A stretch of 64,000 nucleotides of DNA from Nitrospirota bacterium (GCA_021801345.1 JAJYYA010000005.1:1-64000); one strand, 5' to 3'; positions 37,818 to 54,416 are shown, counted from the stretch's first letter. Notes: a model not told the origin generated them from the sequence alone. Made by a program: numbers and translations.

Positions 37818-39053
37818 ATGGCCGCTCCCTCTCTCCTGATCGTCGGCCGGGGGCCCGCCGCCCTCTTTGCGGCCCGACTCGCCGCGGTCAGAGGCTACAG
37901 GACCACGCTTCTTCTTGATTCAGATCCCGCTCCGCTTGCCCTTCACATGGGGAGCGGGGGAGGGGTCCTTTCCCGTCTCGAATCCGAGGCGGGAGCGGCG
38001 CTCTCCCCCTCTCCGACCGCTCCGCTTTCTCTTCCTCCCTGTCTTTCTTTGGGCACTCCTGCCCGCTACCTGGGAGCGCCTCGTCCCTTGGCTCCTGCCT
38101 CTCCCGAGGAAGAGGAGCGCTTCTTCTTCGGCCTCGAGGCCGCGCTTTCCTCTTCGATATTCCCTGAACTCTCCCGGCGCATGGAGCTCAGCCATCAGAA
38201 GACGTCGACCGTTCCGTCCCTGCTTTCGGGCCTGTCCAACTGGCTCTTCGAGCCCGAGAGGGAAAAGGAGCGTCTTCCCCGAAAGATGGCCCGGGAGGCC
38301 AAGCTTTCCATTGCCCCTGCCGGGGATCTTCTCTCGGCACTTTTGCCCTTTGCCGGGCTTTCCGGACGGCGTCCGGAGCATCCCGAGGCCCTGCGTCTCT
38401 TTATGAACATGAACTCTTCCCGGATGCTCTCTCTTCCTCCCCAGATCCCGCCTCCGTCCGCACCGAACGAGGTGCGTTTCTTCGAGGGGAAGAGGCCTCC
38501 GGTCCTTGCCGCCTCCGGCCATGGGCGCCGCTTCAGGCTGTCTGGCGAGGAGGGCGACTACGACCGGGTGCTGCTCATGACAGAATCTCCCTCCGTCTCT
38601 CTCGTCTCCGGGGTCTGCGATCTCGCCCTTTCCGCCCTCCCGGCCCACTGGCCTTCGATCGTCCTGCTGTCCTCGCCCGAAGGCGGGGGATCCCTCCTTT
38701 TGATCGAACGCCATGGGGGCGGGGACAAGTCCAGGGGGTGGCTCTGGGGAACGCATCTTCAGGGGCAGGACCCGGGACAGAGCCTTCTTTCCTGGGTCGA
38801 TCTCTGGAATGCCCAGACCCTTCTTCCGGTCATGGATCGCCCCTCCCTGGTCCGCCGGGAGACCTCCCCGATGATCGAAGGGGGGGAGGAGCTGACCGGC
38901 CGGGCGAGGGAGAAGACCGTTTACCTCAGGACAAACGGAACGCTCTCCTGTCTTGTCGATCCGACCTTTCTTCCCCTTGTCTCCGAAGACTTCTGGGCCG
39001 ATCTGTCCCTTGCCCTTCCCGCCCGAAGGAAGGCCGCCAATGTTCAAGGGTGA
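37818..39053 (+). CDS. FAD/NAD-binding Rossmann-fold protein, unknown substrate
   Basis: The 411-aa protein begins LLIVGRGPAALFAARLAAVRGYRTTLLLD, a G-x-G-x-x-A nucleotide-binding motif ending in an acidic residue. That arrangement suggests FAD or NAD binding. The rest is Pro/Leu-rich and shows no second recognisable motif. It may belong with anaerobic glycerol-3-phosphate dehydrogenase B-like or other flavin proteins, but I cannot assign it. It immediately follows ndk and is probably co-transcribed. Confidence 0.7.
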   Translation: MAAPSLLIVGRGPAALFAARLAAVRGYRTTLLLDSDPAPLALHMGSGGGVLSRLESEAGAALSPSPTAPLSLPPCLSLGTPARYLGAPRPLAPASPEEEERFFFGLEAALSSSIFPELSRRMELSHQKTSTVPSLLSGLSNWLFEPEREKERLPRKMAREAKLSIAPAGDLLSALLPFAGLSGRRPEHPEALRLFMNMNSSRMLSLPPQIPPPSAPNEVRFFEGKRPPVLAASGHGRRFRLSGEEGDYDRVLLMTESPSVSLVSGVCDLALSALPAHWPSIVLLSSPEGGGSLLLIERHGGGDKSRGWLWGTHLQGQDPGQSLLSWVDLWNAQTLLPVMDRPSLVRRETSPMIEGGEELTGRAREKTVYLRTNGTLSCLVDPTFLPLVSEDFWADLSLALPARRKAANVQG

Positions 39054-39177
39054 TGGGCGGGGCAGGAGGGGCTCGCTTTTCCGGGGCGGGTGCCGGGAAA
39101 GATCCCGGCACTCCGCGTCAAGGCGCTTTCGCGTCCAATGAAGACCGTCGCCACACTTTAGCGAGGACATCCTTCCT

Positions 39178-40362
39178 ATGACAGACTCTCCCGCCGCTGC
39201 CCTCGACCGTCTTCTTCGGGGGACCGTCGACTGCGTGAGCCGAGACGAGCTCGCCCAAAAGCTCGAACGTTCGGCCAAAACCGGTGTGCCCCTTCGCATC
39301 AAGGCAGGCTTCGATCCAACCGCTCCCGATCTTCACATCGGCCACGCCGTCCTTTTGATGAAGCTCCGGGAGTTCCAGGAGCTGGGGCATCGCGTCCTCT
39401 TTCTCATCGGGGACTTCACCGGCATGATCGGCGATCCCACCGGCCGCTCCGATATCCGCAAGCCCCTCACGACGGAGGAGATCGCCGCCAACGCCGCGAC
39501 CTATGCCGCGCAGGTCTTCCGGATTCTCGATCGCGAGAAGACCGAGGTTGTCTTCAACAGCCACTGGATGTCGGCGCTGGGGACGGAGGGGATGATCCGT
39601 CTGGCAGCCCGCCAGACTGTGGCTCACTTTCTCGACAGGGACGACTTTAAAAATCGTATGGAGAAGGGGGTGGCGATCCATCTCCATGAGCTTCTCTACC
39701 CGCTGATCCAGGGGTACGACTCGGTGGCGATCCGTGCCGACGTGGAACTCGGCGGCACCGACCAGCTCTTTAACCTTCTCGTGGGCCGGGATCTCCAGCG
39801 TTCCTACGGTCAGGAACCCCAGGTCGTCCTCTCCCTTCCTCTTCTCGTAGGAACGGACGGAGAAAAGAAGATGAGCAAGAGCCTCAAGAATGCCGTCGGC
39901 ATTCTTGACCCTCCTTCCGAGATGTTCGGCAAGCTCATGTCGATCCCCGACTCGGCGACCGCCTCCTATGCCCTCCTTTTGACCTCTTTTTCGGAAGAGT
40001 CGATCGCCCGGGCCCACCCGCGCGAGGCCAAGGCGCAGGTCGCGGAAGCGATCACCGCCCGCTTCCATGGCGAAGAGAGTGCCGCGAAGGCGCATGAGGA
40101 GTTCGACCGGCAGTTTTCGCGCCGCGAAGTCCCGACCGAGATCGCCCCCTTCGCCGTCGCTCCTCCCCATCCGGCGCGTCTTTCCACCGTCATGGTGGCC
40201 GCCGGTGCCGCCCGCTCGGAGAGCCAGGCCAAGCAGCTCATCCGGGCAGGGGCGGTGGATCTTGACGGAGGAGCGGTCTCCGACATTTTTTGCGAAGTTC
40301 GCCCCTCCGGACAGATCCTTCGCGTGGGAAAGCGCTTCTACTGCCGTCTCGTCCCAGGTTAG
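39178..40362 (+). CDS. tyrS: Tyrosyl-tRNA synthetase
   Basis: TyrRS charges tRNA-Tyr. The 394-aa protein has the class I motif HIGH in DLHIGHAVLLM (about 48), the TyrRS-specific DVELGGTDQLFNLL, KMSKS in DGEKKMSKSLKN (about 230), and a C-terminal S4-like RNA-binding domain (ARSESQAKQLIRAGAVDLDGG). The tyrosine-binding pocket and length fit the TyrZ-type bacterial enzyme. No T-box leader is visible upstream. Confidence 0.97.
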   Translation: MTDSPAAALDRLLRGTVDCVSRDELAQKLERSAKTGVPLRIKAGFDPTAPDLHIGHAVLLMKLREFQELGHRVLFLIGDFTGMIGDPTGRSDIRKPLTTEEIAANAATYAAQVFRILDREKTEVVFNSHWMSALGTEGMIRLAARQTVAHFLDRDDFKNRMEKGVAIHLHELLYPLIQGYDSVAIRADVELGGTDQLFNLLVGRDLQRSYGQEPQVVLSLPLLVGTDGEKKMSKSLKNAVGILDPPSEMFGKLMSIPDSATASYALLLTSFSEESIARAHPREAKAQVAEAITARFHGEESAAKAHEEFDRQFSRREVPTEIAPFAVAPPHPARLSTVMVAAGAARSESQAKQLIRAGAVDLDGGAVSDIFCEVRPSGQILRVGKRFYCRLVPG

Positions 40363-40726
40363 CAAAAGAGGAGGATGAGGAGCGACGGTTCCCTCCTCCT
40401 TCCCATTGAACCGCGATCGGAAGGATGCGGGAAACCTCTCTTCAAAAGTCGGAGCCGAAACGGGAAACATCTCCGGACCGATAGTGCCGCCAAAAGAGAG
40501 CGTCGGGGCTCCCGATTTGCGATCCCAAAAAGGCCCACAGGGTCTGACCGCTACCTTCGGTGAGGGAAAATGAGGACGTTTCCTCGGAAATACGATCCAA
40601 AGCCCGGGACAAACGAGCCTCAGGGAAGATCTTCCGAACAGCGCCACAAGACCCCTTCCCGGCTTTGCCGGCGGGAGCCAGTCCCGTGTCATCCGGTCAA
40701 GGGTGAACAAAACAGAACTTGAATTT
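40363..40726. other. Intergenic, no gene seen
   Basis: The 364 bp after tyrS contain no supported gene. A minus-strand frame is open but probably reflects base composition. CCCGGCTTTGCCGGCGGG near 40655-40672 can form a small stem. The accessory hotspot begins at the right edge. Confidence 0.4.
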
Positions 40727-40756
40727 TTGATTTGCTCAAATCTCTTTTGGTATACT
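40727..40756 (+). promoter_or_regulatory. Leaderless-type promoter of the first DUF4143 ATPase
   Basis: TTGATT (40727-40732) and TATACT (40751-40756) are 18 nt apart, and the ATG follows after 6 nt, so transcription should start at or next to the start codon. No ribosome binding site precedes the ATG, which agrees with leaderless initiation. Confidence 0.6.
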
Positions 40757-40762
40757 TCCGGC

Positions 40763-42019
40763 ATGATACCTCGTGACATCACCCAAGAGCTTCTGGAATC
40801 AGCCCGGGAATATCCGGTCGTGACCATTTTGGGACCCCGCCAGTCGGGAAAAACCACGCTGGCCCGATCCACCTTTCCCGACAAGCCTTACTACTCCCTC
40901 GAAGACCCGGACATTCGGCTTTTTGCCGAATCCGATCCTCGCGGATTCCTTTCGGAAACCTGGGAGGAGGGGGCCATCCTTGATGAAATCCAAAGGCTTC
41001 CTCTCCTGCTTTCCTATTTGCAGGGCATGGTCGACCAAGATCCCCGGCAGGGACGATTCATTCTCACGGGAAGCCATCAGCCCGCCCTCTCCGAAAAGAT
41101 TTCCCAATCCCTGGCCGGACGAACCGCCGTGCTGAGCCTCTGGCCCCTGTCGATCAACGAACTCCGTCTCAGGGGACCCATTCCCTCTCCCTTTGATTTG
41201 GTCGTGAAAGGTTTTTTTCCAGGCCTGCACGAAAGAGGTCTCGACCCCAGGCGATTTTTCAACGGCTATCTTCAGACTTATGTGGAGAGAGATCTCCGCT
41301 CCATGGTGGGGGTCAGAGATCTTTCTGCCTTCCAGAAATTTCTCGTTCTGATGGCCGGAAGGATCGGCCAACTGACCAATCACTCCTCTTTGTCCAACGA
41401 TGTCGGGGTGTCGGCCCCGACGGTCAGGAACTGGCTTTCCGTCCTCAGAGCCTCCTATGTGCTTTTCGAACTGCCTCCCTTCTTCGAGAACATCGGAAAA
41501 CGCCTGGTCAAGTCTTCCAAGTTCTATTTCGTCGACACGGGACTGGCGGCTTTTCTTCTTGGGCTGCATACCGAAGAGCAGGTCCGGAGGGACCCTCTCC
41601 GGGGGAGCCTCTATGAAAATCTTCTCGTCGGCGATATCTTGAAGTGTGCTCAAAATCGGGGGAGAAAGCCCGATTTTTTCTTTTACCGAGATTCCCGGGG
41701 AAGCGAAGTCGATCTTCTGGTTCCCGAGAGCGGCCGCCTCTATCCCGTCGAAATCAAATCGGCCGAAACATTCACTCGGGACTTCATGCGCGGACTCGAA
41801 AACTTCCGCTCCCTCGCCATTTCTCGAAGCGCGCCGGGGCTTGTCTTTTACAATGGTCCAGAAGACTTCGTCTCGGAAGGACTTCGGGTCCTCAACCCCT
41901 TCCGTCAGAAGACCGACCTCTTTACCCTTGTGACCACCCCTCCCCTTAAGCCCGCACACGGCACAACGGCGGAACCCTCCCCCTCGAAACGCGAGCAGGA
42001 GGGAGGGGAGTGCCTTTAG
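40763..42019 (+). CDS. DUF4143 AAA ATPase with PD-(D/E)XK-like C-terminus
   Basis: The 418-aa protein has Walker A LGPRQSGKTTLAR (about 28), Walker B GAILDEIQRLP (about 75), sensor FILTGSHQPAL and SLAGRTAVLSLWPLSI. It then has the DUF4143 region GYLQTYVERDLR and KFYFVDTGLAAFLLG, ending in SEVDLLV--PVEIKSAE, a D-ExK nuclease-like site. The family is abundant in accessory DNA and its biology is unclear. No ribosome binding site is present. The last third is duplicated at 43.7 kb. Confidence 0.9.
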   Translation: MIPRDITQELLESAREYPVVTILGPRQSGKTTLARSTFPDKPYYSLEDPDIRLFAESDPRGFLSETWEEGAILDEIQRLPLLLSYLQGMVDQDPRQGRFILTGSHQPALSEKISQSLAGRTAVLSLWPLSINELRLRGPIPSPFDLVVKGFFPGLHERGLDPRRFFNGYLQTYVERDLRSMVGVRDLSAFQKFLVLMAGRIGQLTNHSSLSNDVGVSAPTVRNWLSVLRASYVLFELPPFFENIGKRLVKSSKFYFVDTGLAAFLLGLHTEEQVRRDPLRGSLYENLLVGDILKCAQNRGRKPDFFFYRDSRGSEVDLLVPESGRLYPVEIKSAETFTRDFMRGLENFRSLAISRSAPGLVFYNGPEDFVSEGLRVLNPFRQKTDLFTLVTTPPLKPAHGTTAEPSPSKREQEGGECL

Positions 42020-42271
42020 GTGCAGGACCCTATCGCGTGTTTTCGACGATGAAAACGGGTTTTCGATGAAGACAAGCGTCTTCTTTCGATTTTTGGTTGG
42101 ACAATGAGGCAATGGGGAGTCGGGTAGACGCATTGTAGCGAGGCGTATCGACAAGGCCGGGGCGATTGTTCCCGGTGAGGAATCAGGGCAGGAGTGCGCA
42201 CGCAAGGTCCGCTATCTCGGCCTCTTGCCCGGACCCCCAATTTGGCGGGAGAATAGATCCATGACGACCTC
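41644..42271 (+). repeat. 628-bp direct repeat, copy 1
   Basis: This segment covers the last 125 codons of the DUF4143 gene, the 240-bp intergenic region and the first 11 bp of a copA start (ATGACGACCTC). It matches 43666-44293 with a constant offset of 2,022 bp, no indels and 8 substitutions that I counted. Here the copA start is cut off by the AAA cassette at 42272. Confidence 0.9.
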
Positions 42272-42312
42272 ATGCCAGCCAACGGCGAGATTATTATTAT
42301 TATTACTGGCAT
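42272..42312. repeat. Inverted repeat at the left edge of the AAA cassette
   Basis: ATGCCAG (42272-42278) and CTGGCAT (42306-42312) are a perfect 7-bp inverted repeat starting at the exact end of the direct repeat. An ATT trinucleotide run lies inside the loop. It may mark the cassette boundary. Confidence 0.45.
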
Positions 42313-42323
42313 TAACGAATACC

Positions 42324-42351
42324 TTGCTAATATCATTAATATTGGTATAAT
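42324..42351 (+). promoter_or_regulatory. Leaderless-type promoter of AAA cassette 1
   Basis: TTGCTA (42324-42329) and a perfect TATAAT (42346-42351) are 16 nt apart, and the ATG begins 6 nt after the -10 box. No ribosome binding site is present. The small inverted repeat AATAT-CATTA-ATATT lies in the spacer. Confidence 0.6.
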
Positions 42352-42357
42352 CACACC

Positions 42358-43560
42358 ATGGATCGCCGAAAAAACCCATATGCGCCAGGAGCCGGGGTTC
42401 AACCGCCCGAACTTGCCGGTCGAGACAAGCTCCTCGAAGACGCAGCGATTGATATGGACAGGATACTCAACAGGCGCCCCACCAAGGGGATGATGTTGCT
42501 GGGTCTTCGCGGCGTCGGAAAAACCGTCTTATTGAACAGGCTTCACTTGATGGCCGAACAAAAAGGCTTTCGGACGGCCAAAGTCGAAGCCCCAGAAGGT
42601 GGACTCCTGCCCCAGCTCTTAGCCCCCGAACTTCGACAGGTTCTCTACCGCCTCGACTTGCAAATTTCCACCGGATATAAGCTTCGCCAAGCGTTCTCGG
42701 TCCTACGCAATTTTGTTGCGGCATTCAAGGTCAAAATAGGTGATATCGAGCTTGGCATCGAACCGGTGCATGGAGAAGGCGATACCGGAAATCTCGAACA
42801 GGATTTGCCCGATTTATTGGTGGCTGTATGCGAAGCCGCAAACGAACGCGGAACGGCATTGGCAATTTTTCTCGATGAGGTGCAGTACCTCTCGCCCAAT
42901 GAACTGGCCTCGCTCATTGTTGCCTGCCACGAGGTCTCGCAGCGCAATCTTCCCCTTTTTTTTGTGGGTGCGGGTCTGCCGCAGATTGCCGCCCTTTCCG
43001 GCAATGCAAAATCTTACTCCGAACGTCTTTTCACCTATCCCCAGGTGGGCCCGCTCGACGTCCCGGCCGCACGCTCGGCGCTCGTCCATCCAGCGAAGAA
43101 CGAAGGGGTCGATTTCCAAAGCGATGCGGTCGAAGAAATTCTCCGCGTAACGGAGCGGTATCCGTATTTTATCCAGGAGTGGGGTTTCCAGGTATGGAAC
43201 TCAGCTCCTTCGAGTCCGATACGTTTCGCCCATGTTCAGCAAGCCACTCCCGGCATCATCGCTCATTTGGACGCCAACTTTTTCCGCGTCCGCTTCGACC
43301 GTTTGACTCCGCTCCAGCAGAAATATCTTCGCGCCATGGCGGAACTCGGACCAGGTCCGCATCAAACCGGTGACATCGCGACCACGCTCGGCGTCGGGGT
43401 TGGTGCCGTCGCGTCTGTCCGACAACAGTTGATCAATAAAGGCATGATTTGGAGTCAGCGTCATGGCGAAACGGCCTTCACTGTGCCACTTTTCAACGAA
43501 TTCATGAAACGGCAAATGCCCATCCTAGAAAAGCACGAACCCAAACGTCGACCGCATTGA
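42358..43560 (+). CDS. AAA ATPase with C-terminal winged helix, cassette 1
   Basis: The 400-aa protein starts with the conserved NPYAPGAGVQPPELAGRD. Walker A is LGLRGVGKTVLLNR (about 47), Walker B LAIFLDEVQYLSP (about 165), the sensor FFVGAGLPQIAAL and then a C-terminal winged helix (TGDIATTLGVGVGAVASVRQQLINKGMIW). It is clearly paralogous to the protein encoded at 47214. These look like Orc/Cdc6-type or STAND-like ATPases found singly in accessory DNA. It lies exactly between the two 628-bp repeats. Its role is unknown. Confidence 0.87.
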   Translation: MDRRKNPYAPGAGVQPPELAGRDKLLEDAAIDMDRILNRRPTKGMMLLGLRGVGKTVLLNRLHLMAEQKGFRTAKVEAPEGGLLPQLLAPELRQVLYRLDLQISTGYKLRQAFSVLRNFVAAFKVKIGDIELGIEPVHGEGDTGNLEQDLPDLLVAVCEAANERGTALAIFLDEVQYLSPNELASLIVACHEVSQRNLPLFFVGAGLPQIAALSGNAKSYSERLFTYPQVGPLDVPAARSALVHPAKNEGVDFQSDAVEEILRVTERYPYFIQEWGFQVWNSAPSSPIRFAHVQQATPGIIAHLDANFFRVRFDRLTPLQQKYLRAMAELGPGPHQTGDIATTLGVGVGAVASVRQQLINKGMIWSQRHGETAFTVPLFNEFMKRQMPILEKHEPKRRPH

Positions 43561-43568
43561 ATATTTGT

Positions 43569-43598
43569 CCCCTTATTAGGCTGTACGCCTAAAAGGGG
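43569..43598 (+). terminator. Intrinsic-terminator-like hairpin after AAA cassette 1
   Basis: CCCCTT-a-TTAGGC (43569-43581) pairs with GCCTAA-AAGGGG (43587-43598) around a 5-nt loop, with one bulged A. T-rich sequence (six Ts at 43612-43617 and six more shortly after) follows. It makes the ATPase a self-contained transcription unit. Confidence 0.7.
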
Positions 43599-43665
43599 GG
43601 CAAGAGGACTATTTTTTGTTTTTTCGACCCACACAATAATATTCTCCATCTATCCTACAGCTCCT

Positions 43666-44041
43666 GTGTGCTCAAAATCGGGGGAGAAAGTCCGATTTTT
43701 TCTTTTACCGTGACTCCCGGGGAAACGAAGTCGATCTTCTGGTTCCCGAGAGCGGCCGCCTCTATCCCGTCGAAATCAAATCGGCCGAAACATTCACTCG
43801 GGACTTCATGCGCGGACTCGAAAACTTCCGCTCCCTCGCCCTTTCGCGAAGCGCGCCGGGGCTTGTCTTTTACAATGGTCCAGAAGACTTCGTCTCGGAA
43901 GGACTTCGGGTCCTCAACCCCTTCCGTCAGAAGACCGACCTCTTCACCCTTGTGACCACCCCTCCCCTTAAGCCCGCACACGGCACAACGGCGGAACCCT
44001 CCCCCTCGAAACGCGAGCAGGAGGGAGGGGAGTGCCTTTAG
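43666..44041 (+). pseudogene. C-terminal fragment of the DUF4143 ATPase (duplicate)
   Basis: The frame corresponds to the last 125 codons of the intact gene at 40763-42019 and ends at the same stop. Differences include Pro to Ser, Ser to Asn and Ile to Leu changes plus silent ones, so it looks like a diverged allele rather than a fresh copy. It has no start, Walker motifs or promoter and should be non-functional. Confidence 0.9.
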
Positions 44042-44293
44042 GTGCAGGACCCTATCGCGTGTTTTCGACGATGAAAACGGGTTTTCGATGAAGACAAGCG
44101 TCTTCTTTCGATTTTTGGTTGGACAATGAGGCAATGGGGAGTCGGGTAGACGCATTGTAGCGAGGCGTATCGACAAGGCCGGGGCGATTGTTCCCGGTGA
44201 GGAATCAGGGCAGGAGTGCGCACGCAAGGTCCGCTATCTCGGCCTCTTGCCCGGACCCCCAATTTGGCGGGAGAATAGATCTATGACGACCTC
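43666..44293 (+). repeat. 628-bp direct repeat, copy 2
   Basis: This is the copy that runs into the intact copA gene: its last 11 bases are the copA start. It is about 98.7 percent identical to 41644-42271. The left junction at 43665/43666 falls inside what would be the DUF4143 coding sequence. Confidence 0.9.
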
Positions 44294-46904
44294 CTCTTCC
44301 TCCCCTTCTCAGCCCCCCGCCGCCTCCTCAGGCTCTCTCGACCCTTCGGAGGATCTCTGCGACGTGGAGTTCCCGGTGCTCGGGATGACCTGTGCCGCCT
44401 GTACCGGCCGGGTGAGCCGGGCCTTGAAAAAACTTCCCGGAGTCGCGGATGTCTCGGTGAACCTCGCGACCCATCGCGCCTCCCTCGTCTTCGACCCTCG
44501 TCGGACGACGCCCTTTGAAATCCTCGAATCCGTCCGGCAGAGCGGCTACAAAGCCGATCCCGACACCTTTTCCTTCGAGATCTCTCCGGAGCTGGGTCCG
44601 GGAGACGATCGCCGGATCATGGCGGCGCTCTCGGGAGTCGCCGGAGTCCTCTCCGTCTCCGTCATTCCCTCCCTCTCCTACGCCGGCGTGGTCTGCCTTG
44701 GGGGAGAGGAGACAAGGTCCCGCCTGCTCTCGGCCCTGGCCGGGGAGGGGTTTTCTGCAAAAATTAAGGAGTCGGAGGAGATCCCCGGGAGTGAAGATCG
44801 AGAGATCAAGAGGCTTTTTCGGGATTTTCTCCTGGCGGCCTTTCTTTCGGTTCCGCTTTTCTTCCTTGCCATGGTTCCCCTTCCCGGAGGAGGTCTCTCC
44901 CGGATCTTTCCGACCCCCCGCTCCCTCTGGGCTTTCGAAGCCTTTCTGGCCGCCGTTGTTTTTTTTGTTCCGGGGAGGCGATTTTGGGTCCCGGGGCTCC
45001 GGGCCTACCGACATTTTGCCCCGGACATGAACAGCCTGGTGATGACCGGGACGGGGGCCGCTCTCCTCTACAGCCTTCTGGTCTTGGCCGTCCCCGGGAT
45101 CTTTCCGCCGGCCGATCGCCATGTCTACTTCGAGACGACCGGCATGGTGATTGCCGTGATTTTGCTTGGCCGCACACTCGAGGCCCGGGCCCGGCGCCGG
45201 ACCGGGGACGCGCTTTCGGCCTTTTCCGCTCTGGTTCCCGACATGACGGAGCGCTTTGAGGACGGAGAGTGGGTCCGGGTTCCCTCCCGGGACCTGGTCG
45301 CGGGCGATCTCGTCTTGGTTCCCGCCGGAGAGCGGATTCCGGCCGACGGGGTCGTCGTTCGCGGTCGGGCCCATGTCGATCTCTCGGCCATGACCGGAGA
45401 GCCGATGCCGGTGACGGTGACGGCGGGTTCGCGGGTCTTCTGCGGCTCCTCTCCGACCGACGGCCCTCTCGAGATCCTGACGGAGGCGCTGGGACAGGAG
45501 ACGCGTCTGGCGGGGATCGTTCGGGCGGTCATGCGGGCCCAGGGCGCCAAGCTTCCCGTGGAGGCGCTGGCCGATCGCGTCGTCGCCGTCTTTACCCCCG
45601 CCGTCCTCTTTATCGCCCTCGTCACATTCGTCCTGTGGCTTCTCCTCGACCGCTCGGGAGGGGGGCTGCTCCGGGGTCTTGAGAGCGCCGTGGCGGTCCT
45701 TCTGGTGGCCTGTCCCTGCGCCATGGGGCTTGCGACCCCGGCGGCGGTCATGGTGGGGACCGGTCGCGCGGCCCGCCTGGGGATCCTCTTTCGCCGGGGA
45801 GACGCGCTGGAGGCTCTTTCAAAGGTCGGGAGGATCCTCTTCGACAAGACCGGGACCCTGACCTTGGGAACACCCTCTGTCGTCGATCTGTGTGCGCTTC
45901 CCGGGGTGGAGGGGGGGCAAAGAGGAGGGGGTGATGCCAAGGGGGGAAAAAAGGCGAAAAAGGGTGTCGGGCCAGGGAGCGTAGAGGAAGAGAAGGGGGA
46001 AAAGAGAGTTCTCTCCGTCGCCGCGGCGATCGAGACCGGCTCTACCCATCCTCTGGCTAAGGCGATCCTGGAGGCTGCCAAAAGACGGGGCCTCGCCGTT
46101 TCCGGGGCCAGGGAGATTGTCGTCTTGCCCGGTCGCGGGGTGACGGGAGAGGTCGACGGCGGGGAGGCGCTCCTCGGGAATCTCCGTCTTCTCGAGGAGC
46201 GGGGGATCCCCTGCGAAGCGATGGCCGAGAAGGTTCGGGAGTGGGAGGCCGCGGCAAAAACCGTCGTCTTCGTTGTCCTGGGAGACCGTCTCCTGGGAGG
46301 GATCGCGATCTCCGATCCCCTGCGGCCGGAGGCCGCGGAGGTCGTCTCCGATCTCGCCAGGATGGGGATCCGCTCCTCCCTTGTGACGGGGGATGGCTCG
46401 GGCCCGGCAGAGGCGGTGGCCAGGACCACGGGGATCTCCGAGATCCATGCCCGGGTGGATCCCCTCGAAAAGGGGGAGATCGTGGCGGGTCTCGTGTCGA
46501 AGGGGGAGCGGGTGGCCTTCGTAGGCGACGGGATCAACGACGCTCCGGCCCTGGCCTCTGCGACGGTGGGGCTGGCTCTCTCCTCGGGCACCGGGGTGGC
46601 GCTTGAAACCGCCGACGTGACCCTGGCCGGTCCGGGGATCTCCCGCCTCCCGACGGCGGTGGCCTTGGCCCGAAGAACTCTGCAAACAATTCGGACCAAC
46701 CTTTTTTGGGCCTTTGCCTACAATATCGTCCTGATCCCGCTGGCGGCAGGGGCGGCCAGACCCTACTTCGGGATCGGCCTCGATCCTATGTGGGCCGGGG
46801 CGGCGATGGGGCTCTCAAGCGTTTTGGTTGTCGGCAACAGCCTGAGGCTCTCGGGCTTTGCCGACAGAGGAACACACGGACAATCTCTCAACGGGGGTGT
46901 GTAA
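44283..46904 (+). CDS. copA: Copper-exporting P1B-type ATPase
   Basis: CopA pumps Cu(I) to the periplasm. The 873-aa protein has an N-terminal metal-binding domain GMTCAAC (Cys37, Cys40). A second HMA-like domain (about 105-165) has no CxxC. Eight membrane segments follow, with the transport motif CPC (477-479), DKTGT phosphorylation site (Asp521), a GDGIND hinge (about 748-753), and YN and MGLSS motifs in the last segments. A Lys/Gly/Glu-rich insert (about 541-576) lies just after the phosphorylation site and is not usual. The copZ start overlaps its stop. Confidence 0.96.
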   Translation: MTTSSSSPSQPPAASSGSLDPSEDLCDVEFPVLGMTCAACTGRVSRALKKLPGVADVSVNLATHRASLVFDPRRTTPFEILESVRQSGYKADPDTFSFEISPELGPGDDRRIMAALSGVAGVLSVSVIPSLSYAGVVCLGGEETRSRLLSALAGEGFSAKIKESEEIPGSEDREIKRLFRDFLLAAFLSVPLFFLAMVPLPGGGLSRIFPTPRSLWAFEAFLAAVVFFVPGRRFWVPGLRAYRHFAPDMNSLVMTGTGAALLYSLLVLAVPGIFPPADRHVYFETTGMVIAVILLGRTLEARARRRTGDALSAFSALVPDMTERFEDGEWVRVPSRDLVAGDLVLVPAGERIPADGVVVRGRAHVDLSAMTGEPMPVTVTAGSRVFCGSSPTDGPLEILTEALGQETRLAGIVRAVMRAQGAKLPVEALADRVVAVFTPAVLFIALVTFVLWLLLDRSGGGLLRGLESAVAVLLVACPCAMGLATPAAVMVGTGRAARLGILFRRGDALEALSKVGRILFDKTGTLTLGTPSVVDLCALPGVEGGQRGGGDAKGGKKAKKGVGPGSVEEEKGEKRVLSVAAAIETGSTHPLAKAILEAAKRRGLAVSGAREIVVLPGRGVTGEVDGGEALLGNLRLLEERGIPCEAMAEKVREWEAAAKTVVFVVLGDRLLGGIAISDPLRPEAAEVVSDLARMGIRSSLVTGDGSGPAEAVARTTGISEIHARVDPLEKGEIVAGLVSKGERVAFVGDGINDAPALASATVGLALSSGTGVALETADVTLAGPGISRLPTAVALARRTLQTIRTNLFWAFAYNIVLIPLAAGAARPYFGIGLDPMWAGAAMGLSSVLVVGNSLRLSGFADRGTHGQSLNGGV

Positions 46905-47110
46905 TGGCGACGGTGATCAAGGTGACAGGAATGACGTGCAACCACTGCGTGATGGCGGTGACCCGGGCGATCGAAAAGGTTCCGGGGGTGACGAAGGTGG
47001 CGGTCTCGCTCGAGCGGGCAGAGGCCTCGGTCGAGGGGAGCGCGCCCCGGGAGGCTCTCGTGGCCGCAATCAAGGCCGAGGAGTACGAAGCGGTCTGAGG
47101 AGCGGTGGGA
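46893..47110 (+). repeat. copZ direct repeat, copy 1
   Basis: This segment, copZ with about 10 bp on each side, matches 48441-48658 at roughly 92-93 percent with three indel bases. The two copies bracket AAA cassette 2. Confidence 0.85.
46904..47098 (+). CDS. copZ: CopZ-like copper chaperone
   Basis: The 64-aa HMA-domain protein has the metal site GMTCNHC at residues 9-15 and the conserved helix AVTRAIEKVPGV. CopZ delivers Cu(I) to CopA. The ATG at 46904 overlaps the copA stop (TAATG), so the two are coupled. A degraded copy lies at 48451 beyond the AAA ATPase. Confidence 0.95.
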   Translation: MATVIKVTGMTCNHCVMAVTRAIEKVPGVTKVAVSLERAEASVEGSAPREALVAAIKAEEYEAV

Positions 47111-47128
47111 CGGCTTCCTTCCCTGTCG

Positions 47129-47157
47129 TTGATTTAGGATTTATATAAAAATATAAT
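47129..47157 (+). promoter_or_regulatory. Sigma70-like promoter of AAA cassette 2
   Basis: TTGATT (47129-47134) and a perfect TATAAT (47152-47157) are 17 nt apart, 57 bp before the TTG start. Unlike cassette 1, this gene has a leader with a GGGAG ribosome site. Confidence 0.6.
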
Positions 47158-47213
47158 GAGTTATAGCTGTAGAGATATATTTGACGGCAGGAAGTTAATC
47201 TTGGGAGATTCCT

Positions 47214-48419
47214 TTGGATCCGATTGACAATCCGTTTTCGCCAGGTGCCGGAGCCCCGCCTCCTGAGCTTGTCGGCCGCGACGATATTCTCAACCAGACG
47301 ACAACCGGCATTGCGCGGACAAAAGCGTGTCGATCGGAGAGAAGCCGGTTGCTCACCGGATTGCGCGGTGTCGGCAAGACCGTATTGCTGAACAAGATCG
47401 CCTGGATTGCCCGACAGCAGGAATGCATTACGCTGCAGATGGAAGCGAGGGAATGCCAGTCCTTGGCAGAGATGATCGCGCCAGCCGTGGAAGAGGCTCT
47501 CAACTCTCTCGACAAAATACGAGGAACAAAAGACGCCCTCGCCAAGGGATGGAAAACGTTTAAAGCCTTATTGGGCGGTGCCAGAATCAGGGTTTCCGAA
47601 TTTGAGGTCGGATTTGATCCGACAGAAGGGAACGAGTCCCGAGGAGCCTCCGTCGTGGAATCGACTCTTCCACCCCTGATCGAAGCCGCAGCGGAAGCCG
47701 CAAAGGAGCGAAATACCTCGATTGTTATTCTTGTCGACGAGATGCAATACCTCGATATCCCCTCCCTCCGGGCATTGATTTTTTCTCTTCACAATACCCA
47801 GCAGAAGCAACTCCCGTTCTATCTTGTCGGGGCTGGATTGCCGAATTTGCCAGGATTGGCCGCGGAGGCGGTCTCCTATGCGGAAAGACTCTTTCTCTAT
47901 CCTGTGGTGGGACCGCTTTCGCAGAGCGATACAGAAAAGGCTTTGCAGGACCCGGTGCAGAAATATAACGTTCACTTCGAGCAGGAAGCGCTCGACGAAA
48001 TTTTCAGACAAACGCAAGGCTACCCCTACTTCGTTCAGGAGTGGGGAAGCCAGTCGTGGAATCTGTCGATGGGACCGACAATTACCAAAAGCGATGTGCG
48101 GAAGGCGACTCTATATGCGACAAGCCAGCTTGATGAAAGATTTTTTAGGGCGAGAATAGATCGGTTGACCCCCTCTGAAAAAACATATTTGAGGGCAATG
48201 TCCCACATCGGACCCGGACAGCTTCGCACCGGAGATATCTCAAAGGTTTTAGGGCGCAGAAGCGGAGATCTTGGGCCAACAAGGGACAAACTGATTAAAA
48301 AAGGCATGATCTACAGTCCGTCCCATGGGCTTTTGGCGTTTACCGTGCCCTTGTTCGACGAGTATATGAAAAGGGTGATGCCGGAGTTTGCGGGTTCGAC
48401 TCCCGGGCATGCCCCCTGA
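47214..48419 (+). CDS. AAA ATPase with C-terminal winged helix, cassette 2
   Basis: The 401-aa protein is a paralogue of the 42358 product: NPFSPGAGAPPPELVGRDD, Walker A TGLRGVGKTVLLNK (about 45), Walker B VILVDEMQYLD (about 170), YLVGAGLPNLPGL, YPYFVQEWGSQSWNLS and the C-terminal winged helix ending FTVPLFDEYMKR. Similarity is present along the whole length but the two have clearly diverged. TTG at 47214 has GGGAG upstream. It lies between copZ and a broken copZ. Function unknown. Confidence 0.87.
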   Translation: MDPIDNPFSPGAGAPPPELVGRDDILNQTTTGIARTKACRSERSRLLTGLRGVGKTVLLNKIAWIARQQECITLQMEARECQSLAEMIAPAVEEALNSLDKIRGTKDALAKGWKTFKALLGGARIRVSEFEVGFDPTEGNESRGASVVESTLPPLIEAAAEAAKERNTSIVILVDEMQYLDIPSLRALIFSLHNTQQKQLPFYLVGAGLPNLPGLAAEAVSYAERLFLYPVVGPLSQSDTEKALQDPVQKYNVHFEQEALDEIFRQTQGYPYFVQEWGSQSWNLSMGPTITKSDVRKATLYATSQLDERFFRARIDRLTPSEKTYLRAMSHIGPGQLRTGDISKVLGRRSGDLGPTRDKLIKKGMIYSPSHGLLAFTVPLFDEYMKRVMPEFAGSTPGHAP

Positions 48420-48440
48420 TCTACTTCCTCCTCTCAAAGG

Positions 48441-48658
48441 GGGGGGTGTGATGTCGACGGTGATCAAGGTGAGAAAAAGGACGTGCAACCACTGCGGATG
48501 GCGGTGACCCGGGCGATCGAAAAGGTTTCGGGGGGGTGACGAAGGTGGCGGTCTCGCTCGAGCGGGGAGAGAGTTCGGTCGAGGGGAGCGCGCCCCGGGA
48601 GGCTCTCGTGGCGGCAATCAAGGCCGAGGAGTACGAAGCGGTTTGAGGAGTGGTGGGG
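48441..48658 (+). repeat. copZ direct repeat, copy 2
   Basis: This is the decayed partner of 46893-47110. A similar repeat-cassette-repeat layout exists at 41.6-44.3 kb. Confidence 0.85.
48451..48646 (+). pseudogene. Broken duplicate of copZ
   Basis: The 196-bp segment aligns end to end with copZ but lacks one base after ACTGCG and gains two in the G-run near 48530, so its frame is lost. The metal-binding block GMTC is also changed to RKRTC. The tail (AIKAEEYEAV) is still recognisable. It cannot encode a working chaperone. Confidence 0.9.
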
Positions 48659-48834
48659 CACCGGGTAAAGGACTGCGCGCTTCCTTTCCGGACAAAGAGA
48701 GTCCGGGAGAAAATCGGTCAGATCGAAAAGCCCTGTCAAAGGAGCAGAACTCTGGCCCGTCCCCGTCCGTCTCTGCCCTTGACGCACTCCCGAAATCGAG
48801 CTTAAATACTCACCTTCCGGCCACGATAACGGCG

Positions 48835-49227
48835 TCAGTGTTCCGGAAAGCGACAGGACGGGACAAGTCCAGCGGATTTTGCCAGGAATTTTTTGTCGAA
48901 GGTGAAAAATGTGTCGCAGTCGAGTGAGCTCGAGAGGTGGAGGGCATCTGCGAAGTCGAATCCCCTCTTGTAAAGATGGAGCGTGGCAAGCAGGATCGAC
49001 TCCGCTTCAAAATGAAGATTGAGTGCCGAAAGGAGACCCTCGTAGAGTTTTTCAATGGCGTCGCGTTCAAGACCATAGGCACCACGCAAAACTCATTCAA
49101 TCTCGAGAGCAACCGACAGCGGGACAAAACATTGATGGGCATCGACCAGTTTGATTGCCGCCTCCATTTGGTTCCGGTCGTCGCCAGTGAGGAGTCGGAC
49201 GGGAATATTTGTGTCGAGCGAGATCAC
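48835..49227 (-). pseudogene. VapC-like PIN toxin with an in-frame TGA
   Basis: From GTG 49227 the frame reads VISLDTNIPVRLLTGDD, with the first PIN aspartate, through VPLSVALEIE. A TGA at 49095-49093 replaces the expected tryptophan codon, and VLRGAYGLERDAIE to FADALHLSSSLDCDTFFTFDKKF follows in the same frame with the C-terminal acidic residues. It is therefore a nearly intact toxin gene with one nonsense mutation. A TTG at 49089 could start a C-terminal fragment. Its start overlaps the antitoxin stop (GTGA). Confidence 0.8.
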
Positions 49228-49466
49228 GACGTCTTGGCGAACCGGGCTGTGTCCATCTCATCCTCCGAGATTCGTGCTCCTGTGTAATCAGCCATCCCGG
49301 CAAGTTCCCTTGCTGTCAGCTTCTTTTTGGCTGGTTCCACCGTGACTCGACATCCACCGATTTCCGGCAAGACATAAAGACGCGACCCGGCCGAAATACC
49401 GAGCTTGTGTCGAAGTCTGGCCGGAATAATCATTTCCCCTTTCGCGGAGACCGTGACCGTATCCAT
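49224..49466 (-). CDS. vapB: AbrB/MazE-type antitoxin (VapB-like)
   Basis: The 80-aa protein has the SpoVT/AbrB swapped-hairpin DNA-binding fold: TVTVSAKGEMIIPARLRHKLGISAGSRLYV. An acidic C-terminal toxin-binding tail follows (ISEDEMDTARF). GAGGAT lies about 9 nt before the ATG. It is directly upstream of and overlaps the VapC-like frame. With the toxin broken it may persist as a neutral autoregulator. Confidence 0.85.
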   Translation of the reverse strand: MDTVTVSAKGEMIIPARLRHKLGISAGSRLYVLPEIGGCRVTVEPAKKKLTARELAGMADYTGARISEDEMDTARFAKTS

Positions 49467-49962
49467 CGATTAAATCCTCATAAATTAAAGAATGTATGCA
49501 ACAAAGGTTCCTTGCCTCTTTGCAGGAATCTTTGGGTAGGAAAATATGCATTGGGTTTTCCTGATGATATGATTGTTTTGTCTTGAACAATCATAGGAGG
49601 AGCCCAGTTTTTATTAAGGCTTTACTCAATCAGAGGGAAAGATCCAAGAGGTTCGTTTACGGCAAGATCAGTCTTTGAAAAGACGGACGGTAGACAACCC
49701 CTCCTCGAAAACCGGCCATCTTGGACATCAATCGAATCGCCTCCCGAAGCGTCGGCAGTTTCTCCCGGTGATCGGGATTCTTGGTGTTTCACACGCCCGA
49801 TAAGGTCAGAAGTGGCCCCTCATCGCCGGAAGGGAAGTGTTTTCTTCCAAGTCGATGGAGGGACAATCGCGGGTGGTGTGATTTAGTTCCGCCGCTTCAC
49901 ACCTCTCGGCCGACCCCGAATGGCGATTCCTCTGGCTCGTCCTGTTTGCCGGCATCCGGCGT
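49467..49962. other. Intergenic with decayed sequence
   Basis: Nearly 500 bp lie between vapB and the next DUF4143 ATPase promoter. The only supportable content is a possible transposase remnant at 49667-49788, described separately. The part near 49500-49600 is AT-rich and holds the vapBC promoter region. Confidence 0.4.
49667..49788 (-). pseudogene. Possible C-terminal remnant of an IS4-family transposase
   Basis: The minus strand reads NPDHREKLPTLREAIRLMSK, then MAGFRGGVVYR and a stop. LPTLREAIR-----GGF resembles the C-terminal block of some IS4-type transposases (TLREALR-IAKLGGFLGR). The match is short and from memory, so the call is tentative. Confidence 0.3.
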
Positions 49963-50003
49963 ATGTTGACGAATGTAAGTTTTAAACTTATAATCGTCAA
50001 CAT
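49963..50003 (+). promoter_or_regulatory. Consensus leaderless promoter inside an inverted repeat
   Basis: TTGACG (49966-49971) and perfect TATAAT (49989-49994) are 17 nt apart, and the ATG follows after 7 nt. The arms ATGTTGACGA (49963-49972) and TCGTCAACAT (49994-50003) form a perfect 10-bp inverted repeat spanning from the -35 box to the start codon. A repressor bound here would block both transcription and the start. Confidence 0.72.
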
Positions 50004-51201
50004 GTATATTCCGAGAGACCTCACCTCTCGACTCCTGGAGAGCCGATCTTTGGTCCAGATTCTGACCGGACCCCGTCAATGCGGAAAAAGCACCCTCCTT
50101 TCGCATCTTTCCGATTCTTCCTATACGGAAATCACATTCGATGATTTGCAAATGCGAACTTTGGCCAATCGCGATCCGGGCTTGTTTCTCGATCAGTTCA
50201 AACCGCCCCTTCTGCTCGACGAGGTGCAGTATGTCCCCAACCTGTTTCCGGAAATCAAAGCTCGCGTCGACCGGTTGAAGCGGGAGCGACTCGAGAAAAA
50301 CCGCGAGCTGTCGCCAATCTTTCGAATGACGGGCTCCAACCAGATCCTCATGGATCGAAACATCAAGGAGAGCCTGGCCGGACGGGCCAGTTACTTCCAT
50401 CTGAATACTCTCTCCGTCCATGAAATCAGGTCGAATCTCCCGGAGATCGAACTCTCTGACATCCTGTTTCGGGGAGGCTGGCCGGAACTCTCTCTCGACT
50501 TTGGAGTGTCCCCCGTCTCGTATCTGAACGACTACATCCGCAGCTATCTCGAAAAAGAGATTGTTTTAAGTGCCGGCATACAGAAGCAGGAGGCCTTCAA
50601 TACCGTTCTTGGTCTTCTGGCGGCAAGAACGGGCATGTTGCTGGACTATGCCAATATTGCCCGGGACAGCGGAATTCAGGGGGTGACGGTCAAGGAATGG
50701 ATCGGTGTTCTGGAGAGGACGGACTTGGCGTATTGCCTTGCTCCTTACTCGAGCAATCTGAACAAGCGACTGACGAGAACGCCGAAATTTTACTTACTGG
50801 ATACGGGTTTGGCGGTGAGACTGCAGGGATGGAGGGAGCGGATGCCCCTTCTGACGAGCCCGCAGGCCGGCGCATTGTTCGAAACGCTGGTCCTCTCCGA
50901 AATCGTCAAGTTCCTCCGGAACTACGGCAAAGACTGGCAGGTCTATTTATGGAGGACCAAAGAGGGGGAGGAAATCGACTTTCTCATCCTCACAGCCTCG
51001 GAGGAGGTCATTGCGCTCGATGCCAAAATGAGCCTCCAGTCGACCCCGCCTGTCAGCATCCCCCCACAATTCAAAAAGCTTTTCCCAAAGACGCAAGAGA
51101 TCGTTCTGGTGACCTTTGGCGGAAGTCGCATTCAGCTTTCGAGGGAGTGCCGGGCTGTTCCCTTGGCAGAGCTGCATGACTTTCTGCTGAGCTTTCACTA
51201 A
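50002..51201 (+). CDS. DUF4143 AAA ATPase, second copy type
   Basis: The 399-aa protein begins MYIPRDLTSRLLESRSLVQI. It has Walker A TGPRQCGKSTLL (about 22), Walker B LLLDEVQYVPN (about 72), sensor FRMTGSNQILM and SLAGRASYFHLNTLSV. The DUF4143 block YIRSYLEKEIV and KFYLLDTGLAVRLQG follow. The nuclease-like site is EEIDFLI---IALDAK, with D-x-K instead of E-x-K. No ribosome site precedes the ATG. It is a distant paralogue of the 40763 product. Confidence 0.9.
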   Translation: MYIPRDLTSRLLESRSLVQILTGPRQCGKSTLLSHLSDSSYTEITFDDLQMRTLANRDPGLFLDQFKPPLLLDEVQYVPNLFPEIKARVDRLKRERLEKNRELSPIFRMTGSNQILMDRNIKESLAGRASYFHLNTLSVHEIRSNLPEIELSDILFRGGWPELSLDFGVSPVSYLNDYIRSYLEKEIVLSAGIQKQEAFNTVLGLLAARTGMLLDYANIARDSGIQGVTVKEWIGVLERTDLAYCLAPYSSNLNKRLTRTPKFYLLDTGLAVRLQGWRERMPLLTSPQAGALFETLVLSEIVKFLRNYGKDWQVYLWRTKEGEEIDFLILTASEEVIALDAKMSLQSTPPVSIPPQFKKLFPKTQEIVLVTFGGSRIQLSRECRAVPLAELHDFLLSFH

Positions 51202-51275
51202 AACTGGCAGAACTCGTTTCGGAGTCTCCTCTCGAACGTCCCGGTTCTCGATACCGGCACGTATAACAGGCAGTC

Positions 51276-51662
51276 CTAGCCCAGAGAGCTCCAGGGAATG
51301 GCCACGATCCTGTCGTGAAGCCGCCGGACTTCCGTTCCGTCGTAGACGAGGATGCCGGCAACCGTTTCGGGATAGTCCTCCATGAAATCCTGAAGTCCCT
51401 CCGTGTCGGAATAGCGAGGGGATTGCGTGAATTTGGCCTCCACGGCAATGAGGCTTCGGCCCCGCTCGAGGACGAAGTCCACCTCTTTGCCCGTCACCGT
51501 CCTGTAGTGGAAGATGCGGGGTTTGGGGAGCATGAGTCCTGTCAGGATTTGAAGATGCAGAAAGACCAGCGATTCGAAGAAGGCCCCGGCCTCTCTCGAG
51601 TCGCTGAGAGTCCGGGCGTCGTGGATGCCGGAAAGATGGACGGCAAGTGCCGGATCCACCCA
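51276..51662 (-). pseudogene. DUF4143 ATPase, C-terminal half (split by the IscB element)
   Basis: This half encodes WVDPALAVHLSGIHDARTL through the nuclease-like KEVDFVLERGRSLIAVEAK to the stop. Its first codon (TGG, 51662-51660) directly abuts the left end of the IscB element. Joined to 54246-53380 it completes a 417-aa protein in frame, reading KSPKIH-WVDPALAV as the family expects. An internal GTG could yield a 127-aa fragment, but function is unlikely. Confidence 0.9.
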
Positions 51663-52018
51663 GTCAACTACCCCGTCCTGAAGGACGGAGCTTGAGAATC
51701 CAGACGCCCGAGGCCATGGGAGCCGATCGGTTCACCGACTCCCTAAAAGAAGGGCAGGATTTTTAAAGCCAGGTTGACCAGGGAAAGCGGTATCCAACCC
51801 GCTCCGTTACGAACAGGTCGTTAAGACCCACCCCGGGATGCTTCCTCAGTCCCGGGCTCTGGAAGGCCCGGATCATGCTGGCGAAAGGCAAAGCGCCGAA
51901 GGTTCGGATCGCCGTCGAAAGACGGGAGCCGGTTCGTGACATTCCCGAGGGGAGACGCTTCGCAAGAAGCGCGTTACGGTCGTAAGACCAGTGCAACGTA
52001 AGTTTTTAAGGAGCAACC
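51663..52018 (+). ncRNA. Predicted IscB omegaRNA
   Basis: IscB proteins use a structured RNA encoded upstream of the ORF, with the guide taken from the DNA beyond the left end. The 356 bp before iscB have no ORF but many stems. These include CCGTCC-TGAA-GGACGG (51673-51688), a CCCGGGA/TCCCGGG pair near 51825-51850 and CGCTTC-GCAA-GAAGCG (51956-51971). The guide would be the flank ending at 51662 (ATCCACCCA). Exact ends are not determined. Confidence 0.72.
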
Positions 52019-53350
52019 ATGCAGGTTTTCGTATTGGACAAGAGAAAAAAGCCACTGATGCCCTGCCACCCGGCACGGGCAAGGGAGTTGCTAAAAAGGG
52101 GTCAGGCGGTGGTCCACAAGATCGCCCCCTTCACCATCCGGTTAAAGGAGCGAGTCGGGGGAGAGGTTCAGCCGATCCGGATCAAACTCGATCCGGGATC
52201 AAAAACCACCGGCATCGCTCTGGTCCGAGAAGAAGTGATGGGAACGGAAACCACCGCCCATGTCCTGTTCTTGGCGGAACTCGATCACCGGGGAGACCGG
52301 ATCCGGGAGCGTCTCACCGCCCGGAGAGCGTTTCGGAGACGCAGACGGGGCAACCTCCGCCATCGTCCACCCCGGTTCGACAATCGGACAAGGCCCGAGG
52401 GGTGGCTCCCCCCGTCCCTCCAACACCGGGTCGATACGACAGGGGCCTGGGTGAATCGGCTCCGGAGGCTGGCTCCGGTCTCCGGTATTTCCATGGAACT
52501 TGTCCGGTTCGACCTGCAGAAGAGGGAAAATCCGGAGATCTCCGGAGTTGAGTATCAGCAAGGGACCCTGGCCGGGTATGAGGTCCGGGAGTATTTGTTG
52601 GAGAAATGGAACCGGACCTGTGCCTACTGCGGGAAGACGGACGTGCCTCTTGAGATCGATCACATCCACCCCCGCTCCAAGGGAGGGACGGATCGGGTCT
52701 CCAATCTGACACTGGCGTGTCACGTCTGCAACCAGAAGAAGGGAGACGAGGACATGACCGAGTTTCTGATCAAGAAGCCGGACGTTCTGAAGAAGATCCT
52801 CGTTCAAGCCAAGACCCCGCTCAAAGACGCCTCCGCCGTGAACTCCACCCGATGGGCGTTGTATGAGGCGTTGAAGCGGACGGGTCTCCCGGTCGAGACG
52901 GGATCCGGAGGACGGACGAAGTACAACCGGACCCGGTTCGGACTTCCGAAGACGCACAGCCTTGATGCGGCCTGTGTCGGGAAGGTCGATCAAGTCACGG
53001 ACGGGGACCGGCGGGTCCTGTCGATCAAGGCCACGGGTCGGGGGAGCTATCAGAGAACCCGGCTTGATGCCTTTGGCTTCCCCCGAGGGTTCCTGACCCG
53101 AACGAAGAGTCACTTCGGGTTCATGACCGGAGACCTGGTGAAGGCCACGGTCACGAAGGGAAAGAAGATTGGGGTCTATGTGGGCCGGGTCGCCGTCCGG
53201 GCCTCCGGAAGCTTCAATATCCAGAGACCCGGATCGGTGGTTCAGGGTCTTTCTTACAAAGACTGTCGATGTCTCCAACGGGGAGACGGGTACGGGTATG
53301 CGGTCATATCACACCTAACAGAAAGGAGAGCGCATTCCTCCCCGGCATAA
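52019..53350 (+). CDS. iscB: IscB RNA-guided nuclease (RuvC and HNH)
   Basis: IscB is the Cas9-related nuclease of ISC transposons. The 443-aa protein opens with the PLMP segment VFVLDKRKKPLMPCHPARAR. It then shows RuvC-I IKLDPGSKTTGIAL (Asp58), an Arg-rich bridge helix (about 96-123), RuvC-II Glu160 (SMELVRF), an HNH domain with C201-C204, DH214-215, N229 and C234-C237, and RuvC-III THSLDAA (His313, Asp316). All catalytic residues are present, so it should be active. AAGGAG precedes the ATG. Confidence 0.95.
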   Translation: MQVFVLDKRKKPLMPCHPARARELLKRGQAVVHKIAPFTIRLKERVGGEVQPIRIKLDPGSKTTGIALVREEVMGTETTAHVLFLAELDHRGDRIRERLTARRAFRRRRRGNLRHRPPRFDNRTRPEGWLPPSLQHRVDTTGAWVNRLRRLAPVSGISMELVRFDLQKRENPEISGVEYQQGTLAGYEVREYLLEKWNRTCAYCGKTDVPLEIDHIHPRSKGGTDRVSNLTLACHVCNQKKGDEDMTEFLIKKPDVLKKILVQAKTPLKDASAVNSTRWALYEALKRTGLPVETGSGGRTKYNRTRFGLPKTHSLDAACVGKVDQVTDGDRRVLSIKATGRGSYQRTRLDAFGFPRGFLTRTKSHFGFMTGDLVKATVTKGKKIGVYVGRVAVRASGSFNIQRPGSVVQGLSYKDCRCLQRGDGYGYAVISHLTERRAHSSPA

Positions 53351-53379
53351 ATGCCGAGGTTGAAAATCGCGCGCAGTTG

Positions 53380-54246: not shown

Positions 54247-54282
54247 GGCTTGAATTATAATCATTCAGAAGCCGAGCATCAA
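54225..54282 (-). promoter_or_regulatory. Leaderless promoter with 15-bp inverted repeat
   Basis: On the minus strand TTGATG (54282-54277) and perfect TATAAT (54259-54254) are 17 nt apart, and the ATG at 54246 follows after 7 nt. CTTCTGAATGATTAT (54225-54239) and its exact inverse (54257-54271) flank the -10 box and start codon with a 17-nt loop. This is a strong operator candidate, partly within the coding sequence. Confidence 0.75.
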
Positions 54283-54416
54283 ATCCGACACACTCCCTCG
54301 AGCCACTCCGAATATCCCGGCAGGAGAGGGCTCTCGAATCTGTCCCCGACGAAGGTCTTTGTCGACCCTCTCGGCGACAAAGCCTCTTTCTTCCGGCTCC
54401 CTCCTTTTTTTTCTCG

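Follow-up and report, generated by a model that had tools for sequence, protein, structure and literature searches.

Long direct repeats of host sequence flank single-gene ATPase insertions in a Nitrospirota genome and recur around solo ATPases at unrelated sites

In a stretch of 64,000 nucleotides from a Nitrospirota bacterium (GCA_021801345.1 JAJYYA010000005.1:1-64000, hereafter the window), a single gene for an ORC/Cdc6-like ATPase of the AAA_16 family stands between two direct copies of a 628-bp segment of host sequence, downstream of an AAA_14-DUF4143 ATPase gene and upstream of copA (Table 1). The copies align over 628 ungapped bases at a constant offset of 2,022 bp with 8 mismatches (at 41669, 41689, 41692, 41703, 41819, 41824, 41923 and 42260; 98.7% identity), reproducing exactly the coordinates, offset and mismatch count of the original prediction made on this DNA; identity is lost abruptly at each end, and a match of this length and quality cannot be due to chance. 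The gene inside which that prediction had the repeat begin is the AAA_14-DUF4143 gene (stop codon 42017–42019), and the right copy does end 11 bp into copA, as it had also stated; because of this right copy, copA keeps its native upstream region. The inserted unit has a G+C content of 52.9%, compared with 66% for copA and 63% for tyrS. A second AAA_16 gene, 3.7 kb downstream of the first, is likewise flanked by direct repeats (225 bp, 91% identity), which had gone unreported.

Table 1. Genes, single-gene units and direct repeats around the two AAA_16 ATPase genes (positions count from the first letter of the window).
Feature	Position	Strand	Basis
AAA_14-DUF4143 ATPase gene (PADLOC PDC-S01), 3' part within the 628-bp repeat; itself inserted between tyrS and copA	40763..42019	+	Pfam, PADLOC (1e-100), relatives
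Left copy of 628-bp direct repeat	41644..42271	.	Repeat search
First inserted single-gene unit, 1,394 bp	42272..43665	+	
Promoter-like site TTGCTA-N16-TATAAT in AT-rich leader (34% GC)	42324..42351	+	Consensus match only
First AAA_16 (ORC/Cdc6-like) ATPase, 400 amino acids, AAA+ domain and C-terminal winged-helix-like region	42358..43560	+	Pfam, AlphaFold2, Foldseek, ORC4 profile match
Strong hairpin after the stop codon, T runs ~10 nt downstream	43565..43603	+	Folding, -27.6 kcal/mol, z -4.4
Right copy of 628-bp repeat: orphan DUF4143 3' end, intergenic region and first 11 bp of copA	43666..44293	.	
copA (ATG 44283)	44283..46904	+	ORF call, alignment to relatives
Left copy of second direct repeat, with intact copZ (46904-47098)	46885..47109	.	
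Second single-gene unit, 52.2% GC	47110..48430	+	
Second AAA_16 ATPase, 43% identical to the first	47214..48419	+	Pfam
Right copy of second repeat, copZ copy degenerate with indels	48431..48657	.	

Both sites are unoccupied in related genomes, where the original prediction had suggested that a cassette-free arrangement be sought. In G011, copA follows tyrS after 118 bp, with neither the DUF4143 nor the AAA_16 gene between them, while three others (G002, G012 and G006) have a single copZ followed directly by the gene found at 54.4 kb in the window. With tyrS next to copA, and copZ next to the following gene, in relatives, each of the two insertions in the window is specific to this lineage. In G008 the DUF4143 gene is found at a different site, with homology ending ~70 bp upstream of its ATG and near its stop codon. 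Among 21 genomes of the same family, none had the arrangement DUF4143-ATPase-copA without the repeat, as would be expected of a donor.

The first unit holds a single gene, that of the AAA_16 ATPase assigned by Pfam, and to this extent it is self-contained as first proposed. Its proposed signals stand less well: the promoter-like site just upstream of the ATG has 10 of 12 consensus matches but is weak, since two such sites were found where 1.1 were expected, and the hairpin beyond the gene differs from a textbook terminator. Open reading frame (ORF) and Pfam scans detected neither a transposase nor an integrase gene in either window unit, the unit proteins have only AAA-type ATPase domains in Pfam and no homing endonuclease domain, and no inverted repeats were found across 39,000-48,000 or at the unit ends. 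The AlphaFold model of the first ATPase (predicted local distance difference test, 90; predicted template modelling score, 0.88) has as best PDB neighbours in Foldseek the archaeal Walker ATPase 2QEN, Orc1/Cdc6 on origin DNA, ORC and RuvB, so that it carries an ORC-type AAA+ core plus winged helix at the level of fold only (template modelling scores of about 0.45-0.54). It matches the ORC4 profile at 9e-8 and remains far below the NCBIfam cut-off for Orc1/Cdc6 (19.2 vs 181.3 bits). Among PADLOC profiles, PDC-S01 matches the DUF4143 neighbour at 1e-100 but not the AAA_16 ATPase, which had no good match (best mad8, 4e-5).

We examined the origin of the two copies in each repeat, given that the original prediction had taken the differences in the 628-bp repeat as allelic on the grounds that they change amino acids. 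This is not borne out: only three of the seven mismatches in the DUF4143 region do so and four do not, and when polarised with G008 as outgroup (88% identical) four changes fall to the left copy and two to the right, with one ambiguous, which fits ordinary divergence after duplication. Moreover, the copies are each other's nearest relatives in all four cases that could be resolved, as judged by copy-copy identity against the closest outside sequence: the 628-bp repeat (98.7% vs 88%, G008), copZ (91% vs about 74%), and two occupied variants of a glycan locus described below, G186 (96.4% vs at most 89%) and G172 (94% vs at most 90.7%). These comparisons allow for a donor within the species but give no sign of one from outside it, and neither copy of the 628-bp repeat is shown to hold a foreign allele. 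The first 60 bp of this repeat contain four of its eight mismatches (binomial P 0.004), which could mean a recombination tract or gene conversion. A separate finding of mismatches clustered at repeat ends is not relied on, being partly an effect of BLAST extension.

The same scar, an insert between two copies of one host sequence, recurs around homologous ATPases elsewhere. With an alignment of five family members as query, we collected 80 AAA_16 loci from genomes of many phyla and 21 from viral contigs, and compared left with right flanks up to 2.5 kb, counting copies of at least 70 bp and at least 80% identity. Such copies were present at 8 of the 80 genome loci (L029, 71 bp; L031, 89; L034, 111; L040, 148; L048, 531; L054, 75; L064, 942; L084, 133), in most of which the duplicated piece is the 3' end of the adjacent gene. 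This is also so for a homologue in another genus of the same family (G014), where a 104-107-bp repeat corresponds to the 3' end of its neighbouring gene. Ten AAA_14-DUF4143 genes of Nitrospirota are flanked by repeats as well (L164, 97 bp; L173, 215; L176, 126; L253, 51; L270, 87; L274, 79; L286, 67; L297, 643; L299, 187; L300, 115). Overall, the 3' end of the neighbouring gene is duplicated around the ORF in the first window unit, G014, L040, L048, L064, L084, L164 and L297, whereas the piece is a whole gene in the second window unit and a 5' end in L034 and L270. Under a stricter rule (copies within 1 kb, at least 50 bp and at least 75% identity), 4/72 AAA_16 and 10/78 DUF4143 genes were positive, or 14/150 solo ATPases pooled, compared with 2/311 control ORFs of 280-700 amino acids in the same loci (2/288 in AAA_16 and 0/23 in DUF4143 loci). 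The pooled difference is significant (Fisher P 6e-6), and more so (P 4e-7) if one of the two positive controls, L037, itself an AAA ATPase, is counted as such; independence among loci of related genomes is incomplete, and the majority of positives come from metagenome-assembled genomes (MAGs).

The 21 viral loci yielded only one weak match of 44 bp (L113), and the AAA_16 loci on plasmids, from few isolates, showed no clear scar (L145-L149, L202-L204) or a weak one (L150, L198). Within-species empty sites were sought for DUF4143 loci on Thermus plasmids, where no repeats were found and the boundaries are confounded by insertion sequence (IS) elements; a search for empty sites in the genera of L173 and L176 gave no informative site. 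A Vibrio AAA_16 locus, L151, was excluded because its multicopy repeats resemble integron attC sites; from host and copy pattern, this ATPase may be a superintegron cassette.

Comparison of related ATPases at different sites indicates units with consistent ends, homology extending from about 55-130 bp before the ATG to a point about 15-130 bp beyond the aligned 3' end; the left limit of homology in L048 lies within ~12 bp of the end of the repeat. Over the 110 bp upstream of AAA_16 genes, the family has repeats in 10-bp phase, identity at lag 10 exceeding that of shuffled sequences by 0.104 (t = 12.2) and at lag 20 by 0.060, whereas the same measure is zero upstream of other genes of similar AT content. 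This is a feature of the family only, not significant in either window copy individually. In L037, L074 and L214, for example, the phased repeats just before the gene are partly palindromic. Judging from sequence, they probably form a binding array for the ORC-like ATPase, but as a hint that the family binds origin repeats and starts replication they are only suggestive, and we know of no replication role for this family.

Scars of the same layout surround toxin-antitoxin modules. In one Nitrospirota genus (g38 glycan locus, L313 and L314), the 3' end of a glycosyltransferase gene, here X, is single in seven genomes, while occupied variants read X-DUF4143-X in G186, X-HicAB-X in G172 and X-AAA-X-HicAB-X, with shorter partial copies, in G198. 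Partial copies of a DUF1810-like gene in L270 (G146) enclose a stack of two inserts, a DUF4143 gene and a HigBA-like module, so that both G198 and L270 show serial insertions with partial copies between them. The names HicAB, AAA and glycosyltransferase in g38, and HigBA and DUF1810-like in L270, were read by eye from the sequence rather than by profile search. The HicAB cassette and its junction are ~95% identical in G172 and G198, but identity in the arm beyond falls to 83%, and this arm is similar to the copy resident in G172, the pattern that recombining arms should leave. Because toxin-antitoxin modules at two loci have the same layout, the scar is not specific to ATPases, and these data suggest that it marks small single-gene or toxin-antitoxin inserts more widely and that the arms recombine.

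Taken together, we consider that the repeat was probably left when a compact single-gene unit inserted duplicatively (additively), the insertion then being spread and erased by homologous recombination. The unit, made up of the AT-rich promoter/operator, the ORC-like AAA+ ATPase and the hairpin, would have entered the chromosome in such a way that each side of it received the 628 bp of host sequence from the insertion point, and neither the DUF4143 gene nor copA was broken. At a new site, a linear or circular copy of the unit would be joined to a locally duplicated target, possibly through template switching during repair or replication, or through end-joined circularisation followed by a RecA crossover. 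Thereafter the copies would act as homology arms, across which RecA could excise a 2,022-bp circle and restore the original site, or carry the unit with an arm to the same site of another strain.

Several of these features could also be produced by a Campbell-type single crossover, as originally proposed, in which a circle that carried the ATPase together with a related strain's 628-bp arm entered the resident locus. The proposal of an insertion with duplicated host sequence holds, and the layout fits it exactly, since the predicted anatomy, an insert between two copies of one host sequence, is identical; circularised linear donor DNA integrates by RecA-dependent single crossover in E. coli (PMC3240628), a HicAB cassette and junction are common to two species with species-specific arms, and the mismatches of the 628-bp repeat are grouped at one end. 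What it lacks is a first step: the donor must already have the unit beside the same sequence, so that a crossover explains spread but not first arrival, and a founding step is needed at each unrelated site. The copies are moreover sisters wherever this could be resolved, no donor-type arrangement was found in the 21 same-family genomes, and recurrence of the scar at unrelated sites, around homologous ATPases, excludes a single one-off event. We therefore favour duplicative insertion as the founding event and homologous recombination for spread and excision, and regard the crossover as a full explanation as possible but less probable. We give similar weight to the view that the scar has nothing to do with the ATPase and generally arises when genes are gained at recombination hot spots, through homology at one end with illegitimate joining at the other, or through unequal exchange between haplotypes. 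HicAB, HigBA and another AAA ATPase in the same layout speak for it, as do flanks resembling two haplotypes at the glycan locus of G172, and both homology-facilitated illegitimate recombination and transformation-induced duplication are documented (PMC3240628, PMC3784515). On the other hand, one-ended events should not yield tight single-gene inserts with consistent ends, and scars are in excess over neighbouring genes, although the control set in that comparison consisted of neighbouring ORFs and not of recently gained non-ATPase genes.

An assembly artefact, in which two strain variants with and without the ATPase were fused by the assembler, is very unlikely: although the source assembly is a draft in 73 contigs and MAGs supplied many of the survey loci, copies differ by 1-23%, the copZ copy has indels, control genes of the same contigs lack the scar, the ATPase occurs at different sites with consistent ends, and scars occur in a genome assembled as one contig (L270, G146) as well as on long contigs (L274, 1.8 Mb). 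Least probable of all, with nothing found in its favour, is that a linked enzyme carried out site-specific integration or IS-like transposition, given the absence of transposase, integrase and inverted repeats noted above and copies that vary from 71 to 942 bp; the original view that this is no IS target duplication is thus upheld. That the AAA_16 gene and its phased upstream repeats might constitute a minimal recombinase-free mobile element, the ATPase assembling on its own repeats to direct copying and joining, with the long variable target duplication as signature, is a speculation we hold improbable, if less so than these last two. Certain observations weigh against duplicative insertion itself. 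About 90% of loci have no recognisable duplication (eroded, excised or never made), no pair of copies with 100% identity was found, and some left copies lie 1-2 kb off with other genes in between; the genomes are one per species, and no within-species pair of fresh insertion and empty site was seen; BLAST end extension inflates mismatch counts at repeat ends; and the haplotype-like flanks at the glycan locus indicate that general recombination at hot spots may create some scars without any special unit.

Among the closest known systems are the mobile ORFs of fungal mitochondria, in which the 3' end of the target gene is duplicated (Allomyces atp6; Glomus atp6, atp9, cox2 and nad3; PMC3630166). 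As in the window, a single ORF lies between two copies of the neighbour's 3' part with the neighbour unbroken, but these ORFs are homing endonucleases that bring a foreign 3' end, whereas here the protein, an AAA+ ATPase, has no nuclease domain and the copies are sisters. Integration of circularised linear DNA by single crossover and homology-facilitated illegitimate recombination (PMC3240628) are additive and leave direct repeats around the insert, as in Campbell integration, but they are laboratory or rare events with chosen homology, unlike a scar recurrent around particular gene families at unrelated sites. Integron gene cassettes are also single-gene inserts that can be stacked in series, but here there is no integrase, and what is repeated is a piece of a host gene that varies in length and differs from locus to locus. 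The candidate single-gene defence PDC-S01 of PADLOC, to which the DUF4143 neighbour belongs, is a family with the same scars and solo ATPase lifestyle, though the cassette ATPase is of a different, ORC-like AAA_16 family. This shares its AAA+ core and winged-helix fold with Orc1/Cdc6, ORC4-type initiators, 2QEN and RuvB, yet is a bacterial family of its own. The searched literature, comprising open-licence full texts, contained nothing direct on this phenomenon in bacteria.

Solo ATPase and defence-like genes have a patchy distribution, and no enzyme that would mobilise them is apparent. A duplicated-target scar at ~10% of solo ATPase loci, rare at neighbouring genes, provides a testable trace of their arrival, marks recent insertions and predicts an excisable circle, and suggests a recurrent, so far unnamed route of single genes into chromosomes. 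If it were true that the ATPase causes its own insertion, this would be a new class of minimal mobile element.

Between copZ and the next gene conserved in relatives lie ~7 kb of lineage-specific DNA (window 48658-54400), including a second DUF4143 ATPase gene (about 49882-51201) and another ORF (52010-53350), and this region is an insertion hot spot. The whole 2.6-Mb genome (G000) has ten DUF4143 and three AAA_16 matches, a strong expansion of solo ATPases; the third AAA_16 copy, on contig 66, has no flanking repeat nearby. Further along the window, two additional diverged direct repeats (75-79%) occur at 58433-58554 / 59785-59906 and at 59099-59212 / 60439-60552.

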